IMG/VR virus record: IMGVR_UViG_3300020109_000045
Span: 1-40,912 of that record
Source: a virus
Reading direction: 5' to 3' (one strand)
DNA length: 40,912 nucleotides
The notes beneath the pieces are model-generated. The model was not told the origin of the DNA. It did no database searches and saw only the letters and a program-made list of their open reading frames with translations. A program made the translations under genes and the position numbers. How positions within the stretch are numbered: the first letter of the stretch is position 1; each line of letters begins with the position of its first letter. This document shows, in pieces, positions 153 through 40,872 of the stretch.

Positions 153-886
153 TCCGCAGCCTCCGGGGGCTGGCGGAAGCGTTGGTAGCTGGCGGCGGCA
201 GTTTCAGCGCGCTCCTTGTCGGCTGCTTCCTGTTCCTCAACCTTGGCCTTCATGCCTGCGAGGATGTCAGCAACCGAAGCGACGGCGCGACGACGGGCCT
301 CGCGTTCCTCATCAGCCGTGCGGTGATAGGTGGACTGATCCGGCAAGGCTCTGGCGCGCAGTTCGCGTTCCCTGATCCGGCTGGCCGCGCGATCCAGTTC
401 CGCGCGGACGGCGCGGCGGTGTGCTACCAGTTCGTCGCAAACATCTGCCAGTTCAGCCCACGACGGGAAGAAGCGCCAGCGATGCTGCAAGAGAGCCTCG
501 CGCACCACGTCAGCCGGATAGGCCACGAGCCGCGACAAGTAGGCGTTCATGCGCAGATCGTCATCAGCCGTCGAGGAAGCGCGGCGCGGGGCAATCTGAT
601 CCAGTTCCGCAAGCCATAGTTCCACCTGATCGTCGGACGGCGCGGCGAAGGCACCCTCCATGCGGGCCTGCATAGCTTCGATGGCTTCGGGGGTGCCGTT
701 CACGACAGCCAGCGTCTTGCCGTTCGGCTCATAGCCGAGAAAGGCGCCGTGCTTGTCATACTTCGCTTCCATATCCCTGCTGACGCGCAGCTCTACGCCG
801 CATTGCTGCGCCAGCGAGGCCAGTGAATTGTTGACCGCCTTGGGGCTGCTGGCCGCGAGACGAATTGACGGGACGTGCTGCTGCAT
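149..886 (-). CDS. putative replication accessory / helicase-loader-like protein
   Basis: This 245-aa protein is the last complete gene of the replication operon. The start at 886 is supported by a strong AGGAGG five bases upstream of the ATG. The centre (about residues 85-165) holds helical segments with a W-x-x-E-L, ...YP..VVREAL...W.FFP.W.EL pattern seen in phage replication proteins that sit after an O-like initiator. The C-terminal third is charged, Arg/Glu/Ala-rich and probably coiled coil. No Walker motif is present, so it is not a DnaC-type ATPase. It overlaps the initiator gene by 131 nt in another frame, which is unusual. The helicase-loader or replisome-organiser role is inferred mainly from position. 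Confidence 0.6.
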   Translation of the reverse strand: MQQHVPSIRLAASSPKAVNNSLASLAQQCGVELRVSRDMEAKYDKHGAFLGYEPNGKTLAVVNGTPEAIEAMQARMEGAFAAPSDDQVELWLAELDQIAPRRASSTADDDLRMNAYLSRLVAYPADVVREALLQHRWRFFPSWAELADVCDELVAHRRAVRAELDRAASRIRERELRARALPDQSTYHRTADEEREARRRAVASVADILAGMKAKVEEQEAADKERAETAAASYQRFRQPPEAAE

Positions 887-1490
887 TTGGTCCTCCTACG
901 CTTTCCGGGAAAACCCCGGTCCAGCCCTGAGCAATGGATTGCTCGACCACGGCGTCAGGGTTCGGATGGTTGATGAGTTTCTTGGCGATGAGTTGAGCCG
1001 CATGGGCCGAGAGTTTGGCCCGCTTGATGCGGCGGTGTTCGATGTAGGCGTCAGCGACTTCGGGGCTGAGAACAGTCAGGAGTTCCGCACGCGCGCTAAC
1101 CTCCTTTGACGGTTCAATGGTGTTTCTTGATGGTTTGGGTGCATCTCGTGCGGGGGTTTTGGAACGAGGTGCGGGGGTATCGGCGCATTTGGTGCGGGGG
1201 TGCATCTCGTGCGGGGGTGCATCTGATGCGGGGGTTGCACTGACGAAATACAGGTTCGCCAGCCCCTGCCCCGCGTTCGGAACGATGGTGACGTGACCCT
1301 TCGCGACGAGTGCTTTCAGGTTGTTCTGAACAGCCCGCTCGCCCAATCCTGTCCGCTGGCACAGGCGCGATATGGAGGGGTAGCAGCGCCCGGCATCATC
1401 GGCGTGGTCGGCCAGGGCAAGCATGATAAGCCGCTCGGTCGGGCCAAGGGTCTCGCTTTCAAAGACCGCAGACATGATCTTGATGCTCAT
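756..1490 (-). CDS. lambda-O-like replication initiator with N-terminal winged HTH
   Basis: This 244-aa protein starts with an ATGA overlap to the RusA-like gene. Residues 15-75 form a winged helix-turn-helix of the phage O / DnaD type (LGPTERLIMLALADHAD, then CYPSISRLCQRTG, then a wing near VTIVPN). Residues 85-125 are a Pro/Arg/Ala-rich linker encoded by a 17-bp repeat array. The C-terminal half contains ADAYIEHRRIKRAKLS and a terminal QSIAQGWTGVFP motif common in phage replication proteins. The HTH, repeat-encoded linker and C-terminal interaction domain match the layout of lambda O, where the linker DNA is the origin. The last 43 codons overlap the next gene. Confidence 0.75.
   Translation of the reverse strand: MSIKIMSAVFESETLGPTERLIMLALADHADDAGRCYPSISRLCQRTGLGERAVQNNLKALVAKGHVTIVPNAGQGLANLYFVSATPASDAPPHEMHPRTKCADTPAPRSKTPARDAPKPSRNTIEPSKEVSARAELLTVLSPEVADAYIEHRRIKRAKLSAHAAQLIAKKLINHPNPDAVVEQSIAQGWTGVFPESVGGPNAAARPVNSSRGQQPQGGQQFTGLAGAAMRRRAARQQGYGSEV
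1101..1235. other. putative phage replication origin (iterons plus AT-richer flank)
   Basis: The iteron array is followed, in the direction of initiator transcription, by a stretch at 1101-1140 that is about 55% A+T, clearly higher than the surrounding coding DNA. Iterons followed by an AT-rich unwinding element inside the initiator gene is the arrangement of the lambdoid ori. The sequence shows the repeats and the composition shift; origin function is inference. Confidence 0.55.
1141..1235 (-). repeat. five 17-bp iterons inside the initiator gene
   Basis: On the plus strand the unit is GCATCTCGTGCGGGGGT. Copies lie at 1141-1157, 1162-1178 (degenerate, 12/17), 1185-1201, 1202-1218 and 1219-1235. 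Three copies abut with an exact 17-bp period, and the other two are spaced 21 and 23 bp apart. Copies 1 and 4 are identical. The constant core is GTGCGGGGGT. The array encodes the proline-rich linker of the initiator. Clustered direct repeats inside an O-type gene are the usual binding sites of the initiator itself. Confidence 0.8.
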
Positions 1491-1855
1491 GCTGAAACCT
1501 CATGGATATGCACGATGATGCCGCCATCCTTGCAGACTTGGCCGCGCTCTAAGGTGATGCTGCGCCACTTGCTGTCATCGACGCCGATGGCCTCTGCGAT
1601 GGCGTCAATGCCCTGCTTGATGCGGGCCAGGGCGTTGTCCAAATCGAAGGCGCGGCGGGAAGGCGGGCAGAAGATGATGGTGGCCTCGACGGACTGCGCG
1701 TCGATGGCGCGGACGCCAGCGGCCTTGCAGATGGCCCAGCAGTCGGCCTTGTAACGCTTCGCTGCCTCGGTCTTGCCGCGCCAGTTGCCCTGCCGGGTGG
1801 CATTGGGCGACATGGCAACAGGGGGCCAGGGAAGGATGATCTGGGTGACGATCAT
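1487..1855 (-). CDS. rusA: RusA-like Holliday junction resolvase
   Basis: This 122-aa protein has the length and motifs of the RusA endodeoxyribonuclease family. It has an N-terminal LPWPPVAMSPNATR strand-turn, the acidic DLDN motif (D71, D73), K80 and D84 downstream, and the G-V-D-D pair (D93, D94). These acidic residues bind the metal that cleaves four-way DNA junctions. In phages, RusA processes recombination and replication intermediates before packaging. It lies between the methyltransferase/Cys-His genes and the initiator and is translationally coupled to the latter. Confidence 0.88.
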   Translation of the reverse strand: MIVTQIILPWPPVAMSPNATRQGNWRGKTEAAKRYKADCWAICKAAGVRAIDAQSVEATIIFCPPSRRAFDLDNALARIKQGIDAIAEAIGVDDSKWRSITLERGQVCKDGGIIVHIHEVSA

Positions 1856-2099: not shown

Positions 2100-3089
2100 T
2101 CATGCCGCAGCCCCGAACAAATCGCCGCAGATGCGCTCGGCTTCTTTCAGGTTCTCCCCGGTTGCGTCGTAGTATTCTGGCTTGAGTTCAAAACCGAGAT
2201 AACGACGCCCCATCTTGACCGCTTGATAGCCGGTGCTGCCGATGCCGTTGAACGGGTCCATGACCACATCGCCGGGCTTGCTGTAGAGGCGCAGGCAGTT
2301 CTCGATCACGTCCAGCTGCAATGGGCAGACATGGCGCTCGTCGCCTGCGGCCTTCATGCGGTTCAGGACGTTGCCCTGCTGGATGTTCATCCAGACGGGC
2401 GAGGCGAGGCGCTGCCATTCGTAAACGTCGAACTCGACGTGCTTGAGCATTTCCGCCAGGACGGCATCCGATGGCGTGGCGGATGCCAGGCCGTGCCGGT
2501 GCATCTCTGCCAGCCACTTGCGGGCAATCGGCAGCGCGGCGGCGGTGTCGCCCGGTGCGGCGTGTTCGATCCGATCCGGGTTGTCGCCCGGCGCGCGGAA
2601 GAACAACATATAGTCGGGCATCCCGACGCGGTTCATGCTGCTGTCCTTGCGGATCTGCTTGTAGAGAAGGCCCAAAGCTTTCGTGCGCTGCATCTCGACA
2701 ACCGGGTCTTTCCATATCGTCGTGCGGCCGTGGTAGATCAGCCCGGCATCGGTATGGGCCTTGATCAGATCGCCAGAGAAGTCTTGCAGGCCGATATAGC
2801 CGTGCTTGCCCTTGCGGGTCGGCAGGTCGGTGCAATGGACGCAGACGATGCGGCCCGGCTTCATCACGCGGGTCAGGGCCTCGGCGAAGAACTGGTATTG
2901 CTTGACGAAGGCATGACCTTCGCCCGCATTGCCAAGGTCGCGTTCGCTGTCCGAATAGACGAACAGGTCGCCGAAGGGGGGCGAGAAGATGGCGCAGTCA
3001 ATGCTCTGGCCGGGCATGACATACATGCCTTCGATACAGTCCACATTGTGAACTGCCCACCCGGCGCCTTGATACTTCGGCTGTTTCAT
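2100..3089 (-). CDS. DNA N4/N6-type methyltransferase (SPPF class)
   Basis: This 329-aa enzyme has the two hallmarks of beta-class amino-methyltransferases. The catalytic SPPF motif lies at residues 36-39 and the S-adenosylmethionine motif DPFNGIGST at about 278-286, followed by G-x-E-L-x-P-E-Y-Y. Catalytic motif before the SAM motif is the beta arrangement. SPPF/Y is typical of N4-cytosine enzymes, although N6-adenine activity cannot be excluded. The start at 3089 is chosen because ATG overlaps the helicase stop in an ATGA; an in-frame ATG lies 18 bases upstream. No cognate restriction enzyme is nearby, so it probably protects phage DNA or marks it for regulation. Confidence 0.85.
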   Translation of the reverse strand: MKQPKYQGAGWAVHNVDCIEGMYVMPGQSIDCAIFSPPFGDLFVYSDSERDLGNAGEGHAFVKQYQFFAEALTRVMKPGRIVCVHCTDLPTRKGKHGYIGLQDFSGDLIKAHTDAGLIYHGRTTIWKDPVVEMQRTKALGLLYKQIRKDSSMNRVGMPDYMLFFRAPGDNPDRIEHAAPGDTAAALPIARKWLAEMHRHGLASATPSDAVLAEMLKHVEFDVYEWQRLASPVWMNIQQGNVLNRMKAAGDERHVCPLQLDVIENCLRLYSKPGDVVMDPFNGIGSTGYQAVKMGRRYLGFELKPEYYDATGENLKEAERICGDLFGAAA

Positions 3090-4480
3090 GCGTTGCCCCT
3101 GATCCAATGAGGGAAGGCTAGATCAAGCGGGCGGTCATAGACCACGCGGCGAGAGCCTTCGGTTTGTGCCTGCTTCATGGCTGCGGCCATGCGGCGCTTC
3201 ATTTCGTCGTGCTTGGCCGACTTCTCGGTGATCACCCGCCAGATCGCGGCTTCGGTGTCTGCGATCACCACGTCATTGCGGACGACCTCGGACTGGCCGA
3301 AACGATGCGACCGGCGCACGGCCTGGTAGTGCTGCTCGTAGGAGAAGCTGATGCTGGCAAAGACCGCATGGGCGCAGTGCTGGAAGTTCAATCCGAACCC
3401 CGCCAACTTCGGCTTTGTGACCAGCGCCCGCGTCTCGCCTTTCACGAACGACAGCAGGCGGCGTTCCTTTTCGTCGGCATCCAACGACCCGTGGACCTCA
3501 ACCGCGCCCGGCACCATCTTCGCCAGCAGGTCGCTTTCGTCGTTCGTCTCGCACCAGACCGTGACGGGCTTGTCATGGGTCGCCAGTTCGGCAGCCCGTT
3601 CGCAGCGTTCCCGCAAGGTCAGGCGCTTCTCGTTGTGGAAGCTGGTGGCGGACAGTTCAGGGATGCGGAACAGCATGCCCTGCGCCACGTTCTCCTGGCG
3701 GTCTGCCGCGACCTCATGAATGCGCCGGTCTATCTCGGGCAGGATGTATCCCGTGTCATCGCCGCCCAGGTCAGACGGCAGCGTGGCGCAGCGCGCCCAA
3801 GATGCCACCCACTGCCAGAAGGCTTCAACAGCATGGCCCTTGAGGCGCCATTCCTGCGATGCCGTGGCGGTGTCGTTGATGAACCACTTGGACAGCATTT
3901 CCTGTTGGCGCATGACGCCCAGGAACTCGGCATGATTGCCCAGTTCGGTGTGATCGTTAGGCGAAGGCGTGGCGGTAGCGGCCAGCTTGTAGGGGGTGGC
4001 TTCAAACGCATCTTGAAGGACCGCGCGCGTCTTGCCCGCGAACGATTTCAGGATGCTGCTTTCGTCCAGAACGACCGCGCCGAAGGCTTCCGGGTCCAGC
4101 TTGGCAAGGCGCTCGTAGTTTGCTACCATCACGCCATCGCCGACTTCCGACTGTTCTCTGATCTGGCGAGCATCGATGTTGAACTTATGCCCCTCGCGGA
4201 CCATCTGACCGGCTACTGCGAGGGGTGTAAGGATCAAGGACGGCTTGGCGGTTTCTTCGGCGCACTGCCGGGCAAATTCCAGTTCAATGAACGACTTGCC
4301 CAAGCCGGTATCAAGGAAGGCCGCAGCCTTTCCCTTCGCCAGCGCAAATTCCAGAACCGATGCCTGATGCTTCTTGGCATGGCTGTTTATGGGCTGGTGA
4401 TCAAAGCCAGCTTTCGTGCTTGCGATAGCACGAGACGCGATGAACGCGCGGTATTCCGCAAGACGCGGATGCGCTGTCAT
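3086..4480 (-). CDS. SNF2/DEAD-like superfamily 2 helicase
   Basis: This 464-aa protein shows motif I (DTGLGKS, residues 57-63), motif II (LDES, 137-140), motif III-like ATATPSPND (about 168-175), and in the second RecA-like domain the motif VI pattern AVRRSHRFGQ typical of SNF2-type translocases. It carries no nuclease or methylase domain. The start has an AGGA box, and the gene is coupled by ATGA overlaps to its neighbours on both sides. It is directly followed by the methyltransferase, a pairing seen repeatedly in siphophages. A role in replication fork handling or DNA remodelling is likely. Confidence 0.85.
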   Translation of the reverse strand: MTAHPRLAEYRAFIASRAIASTKAGFDHQPINSHAKKHQASVLEFALAKGKAAAFLDTGLGKSFIELEFARQCAEETAKPSLILTPLAVAGQMVREGHKFNIDARQIREQSEVGDGVMVANYERLAKLDPEAFGAVVLDESSILKSFAGKTRAVLQDAFEATPYKLAATATPSPNDHTELGNHAEFLGVMRQQEMLSKWFINDTATASQEWRLKGHAVEAFWQWVASWARCATLPSDLGGDDTGYILPEIDRRIHEVAADRQENVAQGMLFRIPELSATSFHNEKRLTLRERCERAAELATHDKPVTVWCETNDESDLLAKMVPGAVEVHGSLDADEKERRLLSFVKGETRALVTKPKLAGFGLNFQHCAHAVFASISFSYEQHYQAVRRSHRFGQSEVVRNDVVIADTEAAIWRVITEKSAKHDEMKRRMAAAMKQAQTEGSRRVVYDRPLDLAFPHWIRGNA

Positions 4481-4947
4481 GACTTCCTCCGAATGATGAA
4501 AAGGGCAGCAATGGCCGCGATCAGCAGGCCAGCGGATGCCGGGACGGGAACGGGCGCAGGCTCAGGCAGCGGCGCGGGATAGGTCGGCGTCTCGACACAG
4601 CACGGGAACCACGGATCGGGTTCGCCGGGGATCAGCGGTGCAGCGGGGAACCAGGGGGTGCCATGGACCGGAGTGCCAGGCACCACGCCAGCCAGCGATG
4701 CAGCGGACGGGGTGGCAGGCTGCGGGGCGGGGATCCAGGTGCCCCAGGCATAGCCGGAGGCGGGGATGAACGCCTCAAGCGCGTCATACTTTGCGAGGAA
4801 GGGCAGATCGGCGTCAGGCGCAGGGACCAGACGGGCCGGGTCCACGCCATCGGCGCGGTGCGGGGGCGTCCAGACGGCGGGACGGAAGCCAAGCCCGGCA
4901 AACCAGACGATGCCTGCATCTATGTAAGGCGATGCGACCACGCTCAT
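4477..4947 (-). CDS. proline-rich protein with VPxPA-CTERM-like tail
   Basis: This 156-aa protein is rich in Pro, Ala and Trp. It ends in a tripartite tail: PVPASA, then about 15 hydrophobic residues (LLIAAIAALFII), then RRKS. That layout matches the VPLPA-CTERM family of exosortase-type sorting signals found in Rhodobacterales surface proteins. No N-terminal signal peptide is apparent, so a simple tail-anchored inner-membrane protein is the alternative. The start at 4947 is preferred over an upstream ATG because it has AAGGA and an ATGA overlap with the Cro-like gene. Two adjacent cysteines (CC) lie in the Pro-rich region. Function is unknown. Confidence 0.65.
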   Translation of the reverse strand: MSVVASPYIDAGIVWFAGLGFRPAVWTPPHRADGVDPARLVPAPDADLPFLAKYDALEAFIPASGYAWGTWIPAPQPATPSAASLAGVVPGTPVHGTPWFPAAPLIPGEPDPWFPCCVETPTYPAPLPEPAPVPVPASAGLLIAAIAALFIIRRKS

Positions 4948-5147
4948 TTTACGGTGTCCTTGACCCACGCGGACATGGGAACGCGCCCGCCTGTTGCGGA
5001 TGCTATCTTGCTTGCCTCAAGGATGCTAGGCTCTGCGCCAGCCTTGAGTTTCGACAGGCGCGATTGGGAAATTCCGACCTTCGCGGCAAAGTCCTTCTCT
5101 TTTCTGCGCCAACGGGGTTTTTCCAGATATGCGATCAGCTTTTCCAT
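4944..5147 (-). CDS. Cro/XRE-type HTH repressor
   Basis: The likely 67-aa product starts at 5147 (MEKLIAYLE); a longer frame to 5207 lacks a ribosome site. Residues 19-45 form a Cro/CI helix-turn-helix (DFAAKVGISQSRLSKLKAG), and ATGGRVPMSAWV is the usual last helix of small phage Cro proteins. It is the first gene of the leftward operon, facing the rightward early operon across a short control region. This suggests it regulates one or both early promoters. No larger CI-like partner is present. No clear Shine-Dalgarno precedes the start, so initiation may be weak or leaderless. Confidence 0.75.
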   Translation of the reverse strand: MEKLIAYLEKPRWRRKEKDFAAKVGISQSRLSKLKAGAEPSILEASKIASATGGRVPMSAWVKDTVK

Positions 5148-6234: not shown

Positions 6235-6776
6235 GCTACGCATCCACGACGACGCTCAACGCCATCCGTGCGGCTAACCCCTGCACCGATGGCTGGACCA
6301 AGTTGCTGTCCACTCTCGGCAAGACCCGCGCCGATGACGAGCCGCTGGACCTGCTGACCGTCTTGGACAGCAATGGCCTGGACGACGCACTTTGGGTGCT
6401 GTCCTACGCCATGCCGGATGATCGCTTGGCCCGGCATTTTCAGGCATGGTGCGCGGAACAGGTCGTGCATCATTTTGAGGCCGAGCGACCTGATGACCAT
6501 CGCGTCCGCAACCAGATCGCCATGCTACGGAGCGATGAAGCTTCCGATGAGGAAAGGGCTGCCGCGAGGGCTGCCGCGATGGATGCCGCGAGGGATGCCG
6601 CGTGGGCTGCCGCGTGGGCTGCCGCGAGGGCTGCCGCGAGGGATGCCGGGTGGGATGCCGCGAGGGATGCCGCGTGGGCTGCCGCGAGGGATGCCGCGTG
6701 GGATGCCGCGTGGGATGCCCAAGAACGTCAGCTTCGGCTGATGCTGGCGCCCGTGCAGATGGAGGCCGCAGAATGA
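6231..6776 (+). CDS. repeat protein with (A/D)AA(R/W) tetrapeptide array
   Basis: The product has 181 residues. Residues 1-108 are an ordinary globular domain ([20 protein letters not shown], then an acidic and basic stretch). Residues 110-161 consist of 13 perfect-length tetrapeptides alternating AAAR, DAAR, AAAW and DAAW, which would form a long amphipathic alanine helix with an Arg/Trp stripe. A short tail follows. Proteins with a similar N-terminal domain plus DAAW-type repeats occur in several phages without known function. The DNA repeat is open in other frames too, but only this frame has coupling and an N-terminal domain. Confidence 0.75.
6558..6713 (+). repeat. 13 tandem 12-bp repeats, in frame
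   Basis: The unit is G(C/A)TGCCGCG(A/T)GG repeated 13 times without interruption, with single deviations (ATG at 6579, GGG near 6649). Variation falls only at the first codon (GCT/GAT) and the last codon (AGG/TGG). The 12-bp period keeps frame, so copy number can change by slippage without destroying the gene. Confidence 0.95.
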
Positions 6777-26818: not shown

Positions 26819-28990
26819 TTAGGTGGTGGTGGCGCTGATCGAGGCGCTGAACGGCGACGGCTGGCCGTTCCGGTCAATGGATCGCGCGAAATAGTAGCGG
26901 GTCTGGCCCGCCCCCAGGCCGGTGTGGACTTCGGTGACGGCACTGTTCGGGGCACCATAGACCGGGCCAGCCATCAGGGCGGCGGCGGTGCTGTTGTTCG
27001 TGGCGGATTGCCAGATTTCCATGGCCCGATAATCCGGGTCGTTCGGCGCGCGGAAGGTCACGGCGATCTGCCCTGCCCCGCCGACCGCGCTGACGGGCGT
27101 AGGTGCCGGGGCGAGATAGCCGCCAGCCGATGCGGTGATCAGGGCAGACTCAACCCATTTTGACGCCGTGCCCGGCCCCAAGGTCCGCATCCGAACGCGA
27201 TACGGCTGCCCGACCACGACCGGGGCGACATAGCCGAACACGTCGCCGTCCGCGTCAAGGATCTTGCCGTCGATGGTTCCGCCTGCCTGCCACGGTTCCC
27301 CTTGGCGCTGGTATTGCCATTCGTAGCTAATCGCACTGGCCGAAGGAGACGGGTCAGCCTCGAACCGGATGCGGGGAATGGACGTGTCCCCGCTGGTTAG
27401 GACCGTGCTGGCATCGCTTATCCCCGTGACCGCACCGGGGGGCTGCAATCCCTTGATGGTCGGGTCGAAGTCCTCAAGGGTGATGTCCTGCTCGTCCGTC
27501 TCCGGGTTCCAGGCATAGATGGCCGGGCTTTCCTCGCGCAGCATGGCCGGGCAGCGCATGGCAACCCCGTCCTGCCCCACGGGATCGAAGCCGGGATGGA
27601 TGCTCTCGACCTTGTATGTTCCGTTCCGCCGCGTGTAGGGCGCGGGTAGTTGCAGCGACATGACTGACGCCGCCACCAGATCGAAAGCATCGCCCGGTAG
27701 AACCCCGGACCAGGACCGTTGCATCCGCGTCCTGCGGCCCATGATCGCCGCGACGTATTGCGCCTGCCGGTGATCGGTTACAAAGCCCAGGTCGTATTGA
27801 CCGAGCCGGGGCAAGCCACCGTCCTCTTGCTGCGCCCCGTCCAGGACATAGACCGGCGTGGTCGCATCCTCATACATGCGCTCGGGTGACGTGTAGGTGG
27901 CCGTCACCTCCGTCACCAGTTCACCCAAGGGCCGATTGCGGTTGAACGTCATCGGCTGATCGTCCAGCACGTCGGAAACCGTCATCACCGGCTCTTGCCA
28001 GACTGCCGGGACAAGCCCCAGCCTGCCGCCAACCCGGATGATCTCGGACGCCCCCGCTTCGACCAGCGGGATGATCGTATCCTCCAGTTCCTGCCCCTGG
28101 CTGAACACCAGGACGCCATTTGTCTCGAAGCGCGGGATCGTTCCGCCACCCTTCACCGGGAACGGCACATCCGCCTCATCGGCAGCCCATGCGAAGGTTT
28201 CCAGCCACAGGTTGCGGTCGTCATAGGGCCGCAAGGGGTTCTTGCGCAGGGCGTCCAGCACACACAGCGCCTGATTGGCCGACCATGCCGCAGGGGCGGA
28301 GGGGTTGCGCGGATCGCGGACCAGCGACCAGCGACCGTCCACCATCACCTCGGGCGGGGTGGCGGGCCAGCGTTCCTGCCGGTCGTCGTTGTCGCCAACG
28401 TCCGCCCTTAGCCACAGAACCGTGCGCCCGCGCCAGCCGTCCGTGGCCTTGAAGATATCCCCGGCCTCCGAGAGGAACTGCGCGGGGGGCGAAACCTGAT
28501 CCCCGCGCCCGATCCAGTAGCGGGTGTGGTTCTCGAAGGGATCGTTGGTCGCTTTCGCGCCGTTGCCCGCGAAGTCGTAGGGATTGCCGGTCGCCTCGAC
28601 CTTGCGCTTGTCCAGATAGAGCGTGAACGGCCCCGCGCTCGGGCGGCTGTTCAGGATGAAGCAGCCATATAGGATCCTGCCCTTGACCCTGACTGGCGCG
28701 GGAGTTCCGGGTGCCCAGCATTTCCCATACACGAACCGATAGGCAGGCAGGCTTGTCGGCTGGTGCAGTTCGCGGATTACGTCCTGCTGGCGCGGGCTTT
28801 TCCGGGTTAGCGCCCCGACCGCGAGGTTCAGAATGACGGATGCGCCGATCTTGACCGCAGCCGCCGCCAGAGGCGACAGGGACGCGACCCACGCAGACAC
28901 GGCCTGCACCGCTGCCACGACAGGCCCGGCATCAGCGGGACCGCCCAAGCAGACAAGCGCCGTGGTCGCCAGCAAAAGTTTACGCAGCAC
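26819..28990 (-). CDS. tail tip / host-specificity protein (J-like), GTG start
   Basis: This 723-aa protein starts with GTG overlapping the previous stop. Residues 1-22 look like a signal peptide (MLRKLLLATTALVCLGGPADA), which is notable for a virion protein. A short membrane-like segment follows (about 42-62). The body (LHQPTSLPAYRFVYGK, then a long PxDVxD-type baseplate region) resembles J/GTA gp15-type tip proteins. The C-terminus has fibronectin III-like modules (PDYRAMEIWQS, then GLGAGQTRYYFARSIDRNGQPSPFSAS). It forms the central tip that contacts the host envelope. Confidence 0.8.
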   Translation of the reverse strand: MLRKLLLATTALVCLGGPADAGPVVAAVQAVSAWVASLSPLAAAAVKIGASVILNLAVGALTRKSPRQQDVIRELHQPTSLPAYRFVYGKCWAPGTPAPVRVKGRILYGCFILNSRPSAGPFTLYLDKRKVEATGNPYDFAGNGAKATNDPFENHTRYWIGRGDQVSPPAQFLSEAGDIFKATDGWRGRTVLWLRADVGDNDDRQERWPATPPEVMVDGRWSLVRDPRNPSAPAAWSANQALCVLDALRKNPLRPYDDRNLWLETFAWAADEADVPFPVKGGGTIPRFETNGVLVFSQGQELEDTIIPLVEAGASEIIRVGGRLGLVPAVWQEPVMTVSDVLDDQPMTFNRNRPLGELVTEVTATYTSPERMYEDATTPVYVLDGAQQEDGGLPRLGQYDLGFVTDHRQAQYVAAIMGRRTRMQRSWSGVLPGDAFDLVAASVMSLQLPAPYTRRNGTYKVESIHPGFDPVGQDGVAMRCPAMLREESPAIYAWNPETDEQDITLEDFDPTIKGLQPPGAVTGISDASTVLTSGDTSIPRIRFEADPSPSASAISYEWQYQRQGEPWQAGGTIDGKILDADGDVFGYVAPVVVGQPYRVRMRTLGPGTASKWVESALITASAGGYLAPAPTPVSAVGGAGQIAVTFRAPNDPDYRAMEIWQSATNNSTAAALMAGPVYGAPNSAVTEVHTGLGAGQTRYYFARSIDRNGQPSPFSASISATTT

Positions 28991-40450: not shown

Positions 40451-40872
40451 GGCTTCCCGCCCCCGGCGCTTGCCTGCTTCGCTGTCCCGCTGGCCTTGTC
40501 CGTATAGCTGGACTGCTGCGTCAGGCGCATCTTCGTCGCGCATGACAGCGCCGCCCGCGTCTGCGTTTCCTTCATCGTGCAAAGCTGCTTGTAGCGGGCA
40601 AAGCACTCGTCGTCCGTCATGGCCTTGCGGCGCACCTTCTCGATCATCAATTGCAGCGCCTCGCCCTCGGCGACGTGTTCGCAGAAAGCCTGGAGCAACG
40701 AAAGCGTTTCGTCGGTGAACCAGTCCGATGGCATCCGGTTAACCACCCGCCGCCACTCGTCCGTAGCGCGATCATTCAGCGACATCGGAGGCTCGGGGCG
40801 ATCCCCCAGGCGAATGACCGGAGAAACGACCTCAATCTCGGCGGCGCTCTTTCGGCCCCGTTTTTGGGTCAT
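40438..40872 (-). CDS. terS: terminase small subunit (P27-type)
   Basis: This 144-aa protein starts MTQKRGRKSAAEIEV, with the basic R-G-R-K-S HTH-like N-terminus of P27-family small terminases. It continues with LNDRATDEWRRVVNRMPSDWFTDETLSLLQAFCEHVA (DNA-binding and oligomerisation helices) and a Gly/Ser/Lys-rich end. It recognises phage DNA and recruits the large subunit. A weak AGGT lies upstream. It is the first structural gene. Confidence 0.8.
   Translation of the reverse strand: MTQKRGRKSAAEIEVVSPVIRLGDRPEPPMSLNDRATDEWRRVVNRMPSDWFTDETLSLLQAFCEHVAEGEALQLMIEKVRRKAMTDDECFARYKQLCTMKETQTRAALSCATKMRLTQQSSYTDKASGTAKQASAGGGKPWDN

Follow-up and report, generated by a model that had tools for sequence, protein, structure and literature searches.

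The analysed stretch of DNA, hereafter the window, is a whole contig of 40,912 bases from a fragmented genome bin. Among its genes are those for terminase, portal, protease, major head, tape-measure and tail proteins, by which it is judged to be an HK97-like siphophage or prophage. Its replication module is located on the minus strand and comprises a helicase, a methyltransferase, a RusA-like resolvase, the initiator and, in the position of the lambda P gene, a gene which we refer to as P0002:

149–886, minus strand: P0002, conserved gene in the lambda P position
756–1490, minus strand: O-like replication initiator gene P0001, 244 aa (Pfam, PHROG, AlphaFold model)
1487–1855, minus strand: RusA-like Holliday junction resolvase, upstream neighbour (PHROG 34, 6e-20)
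2100–3107, minus strand: DNA N6/N4 methyltransferase, neighbour in the replication module (profile matches)
3086–4480, minus strand: SNF2/ResIII-type helicase, neighbour in the replication module (profile matches)

Searches for a family, sequence or solved-fold match of P0002 gave none; by position only, it is a candidate helicase loader. P0002 shares 131 bp (756–886) with the initiator gene in different frames and is preceded by a good ribosome-binding site, AGGAGG. The tail of the initiator which overlaps P0002 is predicted to be disordered. An overlap of this kind is also found in a Paracoccus relative (L009).

The preliminary description of this DNA had assigned an N-terminal winged helix-turn-helix domain to the initiator, and this was confirmed. 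Residues 14–67 of P0001 match HTH_36 (Pfam, 2e-16), and the AlphaFold model predicts a winged helix at residues 1–83 (pLDDT about 90 across most of it), a disordered linker at about 91–128 and a helical C-domain at 130–187. The profile PHROG 678, ‘replication initiation O-like’, matches the protein at full length (residues 3–236, 3e-25). Lambda O also matches PHROG 678 (residues 1–172, 2e-35) and, in addition, PF04492 (Phage_rep_O, 6e-36). P0001 has no PF04492 match in Pfam, and direct profile comparison of the two proteins (hhalign) detected no similarity (probability 2.4); PHROG profiles tie them only remotely. By its domain matches, the initiator is outside lambda's own Phage_rep_O family and belongs to HTH_36. 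Comparison with solved structures by sequence yielded LexA-like winged helices and nothing else (best E 0.04). The Foldseek matches were winged helices of a generic kind, among them the DnaD N-domain, and none was below 1e-3. The Rep initiator families of iteron plasmids are absent from the Pfam matches with E-values up to 0.1.

The disordered linker of P0001 is encoded by a block of iterons and the stretch after them, which agrees with the location first described for the repeats, the linker-coding region of an O-like gene. The five iterons are located at 1141–1235 on the minus (coding) strand and are followed by a second element:

1219–1235, minus strand: iteron 1, ACCCCCGCATCAGATGC, perfect dyad GCATC-A-GATGC
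1202–1218, minus strand: iteron 2, ACCCCCGCACGAGATGC
1185–1201, minus strand: iteron 3, ACCCCCGCACCAAATGC
1162–1178, minus strand: iteron 4, degenerate, ACCCCCGCACCTCGTTC; the left core alone is kept, ACCCCCGCAC
1141–1157, minus strand: iteron 5, ACCCCCGCACGAGATGC
1107–1135, minus strand: candidate unwinding/strand-capture element (sequence, stability, conservation in relatives), with the copies AACCATCA (1128–1135), AACACCAT (degenerate middle copy, 1117–1124) and AACCGTCA (1107–1114)

The core ACCCCCGCA occurs five times in the gene, at gene positions 255, 272, 289, 312 and 333 (the array spans 255–350). The start-to-start distances of 17, 17, 23 and 21 bp correspond to the reported three tandem copies and two copies spaced by 21–23 bp. 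The claim of five 17-bp units has to be narrowed: there are five copies of the core, while the 17-mer ACCCCCGCANNARATGC is matched with at most one mismatch by four of them (1219–1235, 1202–1218, 1185–1201 and 1141–1157), 1162–1178 keeping only the core. A GCA-N5-TGC dyad is present in four of the five iterons, with perfect five-base arms in one; the individual copies are weak. In the whole 40.9-kb window, ACCCCCGCA is found six times (0.67 expected), a count reached in none of 100 shuffles. The GC content is 66% in the iteron block versus 43% in the stretch beside it, and the 35-mers with the lowest stability in the whole gene begin at the element, as the proposed AT-richer stretch would have it. 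The cumulative GC skew, which had been suggested as a check of the origin, has its minimum at 40859 and its maximum at 27144; it follows the gene strand and is uninformative either way.

The repeats might be protein-level repeats of a Pro/Ala/Ser/His-rich linker, with the likeness of the DNA as a by-product, and they do lie in sequence coding for a disordered linker. However, the codon phases of the iterons are 0, 2, 1, 0 and 0, and the five copies yield five different peptides, which places the repeat at the DNA level. The 17-bp units shift the frame, as do the 10- and 11-bp units of the downstream element described below, and the signal is lost on synonymous shuffling: when the gene was shuffled 2000 times among synonymous codons, no 9-mer attained five copies, and four were attained in only one shuffle. 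Moreover, the element of one relative (L012) sits on a stop codon which splits the gene. An origin of the repeats at the protein level is thus hardly credible.

To see how general this arrangement is, relatives were picked by protein similarity, not by a DNA motif, and made non-redundant, resulting in 66 genes. Iterons were defined as at least three copies of one 7-mer in the linker. They are present in the linker of 65 of these 66 genes, compared with a mean of 19.5 and a maximum of 30 upon synonymous shuffling; the same 7-mer count is attained in the first 300 nt of 24 genes and in the last 300 nt of 13. The iteron blocks are richer in dyads than shuffled sequences (4.61 versus 2.17 per 100 nt; so in 57 of 65 genes), which fits sites for dimers. 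The letters of the iterons vary, increasingly so with growing protein distance, and their presence is near-universal. The N-domain columns 37, 42 and 51 co-vary most with the GCA-type iteron half-site, a lead only, as the signal is confounded by phylogeny; residue 51 is the start of the probable recognition helix. The expectation that the iterons would be conserved in related phages did not hold: the iterons diverge fastest, and the conserved part is the DNA just downstream. The central proposal fared better. The PHROG and winged-helix matches, the repeats in 65 of 66 relatives and the dyad enrichment support a lambda-like origin inside the initiator gene as the best reading of the repeats.

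The outer copies of the downstream element in the window are exactly 21 bp apart, equal to two helical turns. In HTH_36 initiators, the element consists of the word AACCRTCA, repeated every 10–11 bp within a conserved stretch of about 30–40 bp after the iterons. The percentile of its instability within its own gene has a median of 0.996 (n = 50 relatives). For a test defined by position, we used the 60 nt after the last iteron, a place chosen without any motif. AACC(R)RTMA is found there in 50 of 65 genes on the sense strand and in none on the antisense strand; elsewhere, it occurs in one of the 65 iteron blocks and in none of the 65 upstream N-domain coding regions. Of the 15 genes without the exact form, most have an AACC or A/C-rich variant instead. 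Within the alpha-type set, no 8-mer in the linker and the 3' portion of the gene is commoner than AACCATCA (31 of 48 genes sense, 0 of 48 antisense), and at least two copies of AACCRTCA are present in 28 of the 48 genes, compared with 0.9 expected (maximum 4) from synonymous shuffling. The copies are spaced by 10 bp in 29 cases and by 11 bp in 29. Such spacings shift the reading frame, so that selection acts on the DNA, and they keep the word on one helix face. Curvature as the sole cause of the phasing was judged insufficient, as letters beyond AA are also conserved.

In gene pairs with an N-domain identity below 0.35, the similarity above shuffled sequences is 4.2 in the downstream stretch versus 0.9 in the iterons. 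Purifying selection on the element and divergence of the iterons are both seen at the sequence level. When a viral collection was scanned for the pattern of phased words, at least 120 matches were obtained, whereas the letter-reversed control gave none; among the 80 loci examined, 60 are O-like initiator genes.

Some loci depart from the common layout. In L012 (1501–2204) and L143, the element AACCATCATTGA lies in a frame in which its TGA is read as stop, and the initiator is split into two overlapping ORFs, one for the N-domain and one, starting at TTG, for the C-domain; the DNA word is retained and the continuity of the reading frame is lost. Seven loci (L218, L221, L224, L226, L242, L251 and L280) encode DnaD-like initiators with tandem 11-mers, AACCATCAAGC or AACCGTCAGGC. 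No further iteron was seen in these loci, whose sampling is motif-biased, and a purine-rich stretch often comes after the 11-mers. The 11-mers may reflect either convergence or a signal shared with the element. In the T7-like Pseudomonas phage Haage (L335), an element-like 10–11 bp repeat, terminal CCCATCAAGGAACCATCAAGGCCCATCAAGGGACCATCAAG, is located at about 30–75, outside the annotated genes.

Elements of this kind are also found in other branches. The gamma-proteobacterial branch of HTH_36, collected through the protein similarity of its members to Pasteurellaceae/Enterobacteria-type genes, combines variable iterons with the constant element AGAACCAGTCACTCTTTTGAACCAGTCA; AACCAGTCA is present in 15 of 17 genes on the sense strand and in none on the antisense strand. 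Among 5,426 complete E. coli genomes, 897 contain a version of this element; the 25 E. coli places listed all fall in a ‘helix-turn-helix domain-containing protein’. Lambda's Phage_rep_O family was sampled from 246 genomes of one family together with earlier loci. Its element is ACACAAAAGACA, with ACAAAAGA in 23 of 28 genes sense and 0 antisense, and its iterons differ widely (GTGACA, GGGTAA, ATTAGC, CGGGAA). In Phage_rep_O pairs with less than 0.7 N-domain identity, the downstream excess is greater than the iteron excess (5.2 versus 2.7; 9.1 versus 4.2), while in close pairs it is not. Between the HTH_36 and Phage_rep_O elements, cross-family similarity is nil (excess −0.16). The 10–11 bp phasing is clear in the alpha-type HTH_36 genes; the corresponding values are 17 and 12 in the gamma branch and about 15 in lambda's family.

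These data bear on another view of the element, namely that of a plain lambda-like origin with iterons and an unstable A+T-rich stretch, the letters of which are irrelevant beyond low stability. The element is indeed the least stable DNA in the gene, and the lambda literature calls the region merely A+T rich (PMC5043065). Low stability would not, however, place the same words in distant genes on the sense strand only; these words are not produced by synonymous shuffles, and composition would not yield separate words for HTH_36 and Phage_rep_O. We consider this view unlikely.

What the spelling of the element follows can be seen from a natural swap, as C-domain families are common to both N-domain families. 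In every combination of N- and C-domain, the element goes with the N-domain. The AACC-type element is found in 114 of 133 HTH_36 genes and in none of 28 Phage_rep_O genes, the ACAAAAGA-type element in 25 of 28 Phage_rep_O genes and in none of 133 HTH_36 genes. Because the 133-gene set was partly fetched by motif, the value of 114 is inflated (the protein-selected figure is the 50 of 65 given above); the zeros are unaffected. The host does not explain the spelling, since the E. coli phages lambda (ACAAAAGA) and PhiR47_1 (HTH_36, AACCAGTCA) differ in their words within the same host, and AACCRTCA spans phages of Sphingopyxis, Pseudomonas, Bordetella, Vibrio and Microcystis. In the genes compared, the spelling of the element tracks the N-domain of the initiator, not its C-domain or the host.

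The same comparison speaks against the idea that a host factor (IHF, DnaA, HU or similar) binds the element as a series of duplex sites and aids bending or opening. Phasing by 10–11 bp would suit duplex binding on one face, and the needs for DnaA and similar factors differ between lambda and Stx phages (PMC7466680), but within E. coli the spelling follows the initiator family, and one word is present in phages of the five genera named above. We regard a host-factor array as improbable. Still less probable is that the element is a recombination boundary at which phages swap cassettes of N-domain and iterons as well as C-domains, its conservation resulting from the shuffling. The C-domain families do occur in both N-domain families, the junction being located downstream of the element, and a contig from the same bin (L002) has the flanks of the window but a different initiator. 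Joining the two families would, however, need identical letters in both, while their elements are unrelated, and neither the phasing of the repeats nor the instability would be explained. Finally, owing to the physical linkage of element and N-domain, their co-inheritance could be hitch-hiking and not recognition. Linkage fails to explain why the element is slow and the equally linked iterons are fast. The repeats and their dyads and placement, the instability, and the co-inheritance of element and N-domain are all taken from the DNA itself.

We therefore favour, with a probability of roughly 0.7, an origin in which iterons bound by the N-domain adjoin a sequence-specific unwinding or strand-capture word read by the same domain family. 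Dimers of the N-terminal winged helix of the initiator would fill the five iterons. Their assembly would strain the adjacent 30–40 bp or so, the least stable DNA of the gene, leading to its opening. A conserved face of the N-domain would read the repeated word, first on the duplex face and/or as captured single strand, and the other strand would be freed for helicase loading by the C-domain together with a partner such as P0002. In this scheme we infer origin activity, binding, the reader of the element, the strand which is read and helicase loading.

Several steps have counterparts in known systems. The iterons of lambda are inverted repeats to which O dimers bind (PMC5043065, PMC7466680), and O opens a neighbouring A+T region of 40 bp (PMC5043065). 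Lambda O also binds single-stranded DNA, and its binding to the iterons is unaffected when the AT-rich region is replaced (PMC7466680); any reading of the element must therefore follow formation of the O-some. Among plasmid initiators, TrfA and RepE bind to a single strand where the origin unwinds; RK2 requires all 13-mers of this region (PMC4081077).

On balance, we lean towards a wider reading in which O-type phage origins carry two independently evolving codes, fast iterons for replicon identity and a slow family word read by the N-domain (AACCRTCA, AACCAGTCA or ACACAAAAGACA). If so, the textbook ‘A+T-rich region’ of lambda would be such a word. Across hundreds of relatives, the letters of the iterons vary freely and the easily melted stretch beside them is almost constant within each initiator family, which suggests a sequence-specific signal for strand opening, so far unrecognised, in phage origins.

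The window resembles the lambda origin in having iterons, with dyads that are weak in the individual copies, in the linker-coding DNA, after which comes the least stable stretch of the gene. As in lambda O (PF04492), an N-terminal DNA-binding domain, a linker and a separate C-domain follow each other, and the replication genes are adjacent. In contrast to lambda, the N-domain is HTH_36 instead of Phage_rep_O, the letters of the iterons differ, the element is AACCRTCA and not ACACAAAAGACA, and the gene in the place of P is not recognisable as P. The HTH_36 O-like proteins (PHROG 678, 391, 270 and 1032) have the same N-domain, with iterons and element placed alike in phages of many hosts; as far as its sequence tells, the window initiator belongs to this group without essential difference. 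Plasmid origins such as those of RK2 (TrfA, 13-mers) and F (RepE) likewise have iterons beside a repeated unwinding element, one strand of which the plasmid initiators read sequence-specifically (PMC4081077). Unlike these, the window has no Rep family match, its putative origin lies within a gene, and its unit is AACCRTCA every 10–11 bp and not a 13-mer. Bacterial oriC (E. coli 13-mers) also has short conserved words in the unwinding region adjoining the initiator sites, and a conserved trinucleotide motif has been mentioned for it (PMC5043065), but the words, their spacing and the initiator class (no AAA+ domain in the window) differ.

A lambda-like origin in one more phage is ordinary; what appears new is the conserved family-specific word. 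Lambda is a founding model, and the step from initiator binding to strand opening is still regarded as unsettled (PMC5043065). Published iterons or an element for the HTH_36 group were not found in the literature searched. Nor did searches by string and topic, covering few of the older papers on lambdoid origins, find a family-specific opening word beside variable iterons, and an earlier mention is possible. If the word is tied to the N-domain and separable from iteron specificity, origin opening could be dissected by swaps; in nature, the same C-domains are already combined with N-domains of two families that differ in their word. The word pattern would then also locate origins in uncharacterised phages.

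Some further features of the window and its bin were recorded. An Rfam search of the window gave no match. At 6555–6719, 12-bp units in tandem (13.8 copies) encode Ala/Trp/Asp/Arg repeats, and 4477–4968 encodes a small protein whose C-terminus has a weak resemblance to PEP-CTERM (E 0.07), which is unusual beside a phage replication module. L002 (contig C223), from the same genome bin, has two short flanks in common with the window, at 1474–1601 and 1848–1959 (98–99%). An unrelated initiator, DUF1376-like by eye, takes the place of the O-like gene there, corresponding to an exchange of the replication module. L016 (contig C303), also from this bin, contains a second O-like initiator with its own iterons and the variant element GAACCTATTCAGGAACCTATCCAAGAACC.
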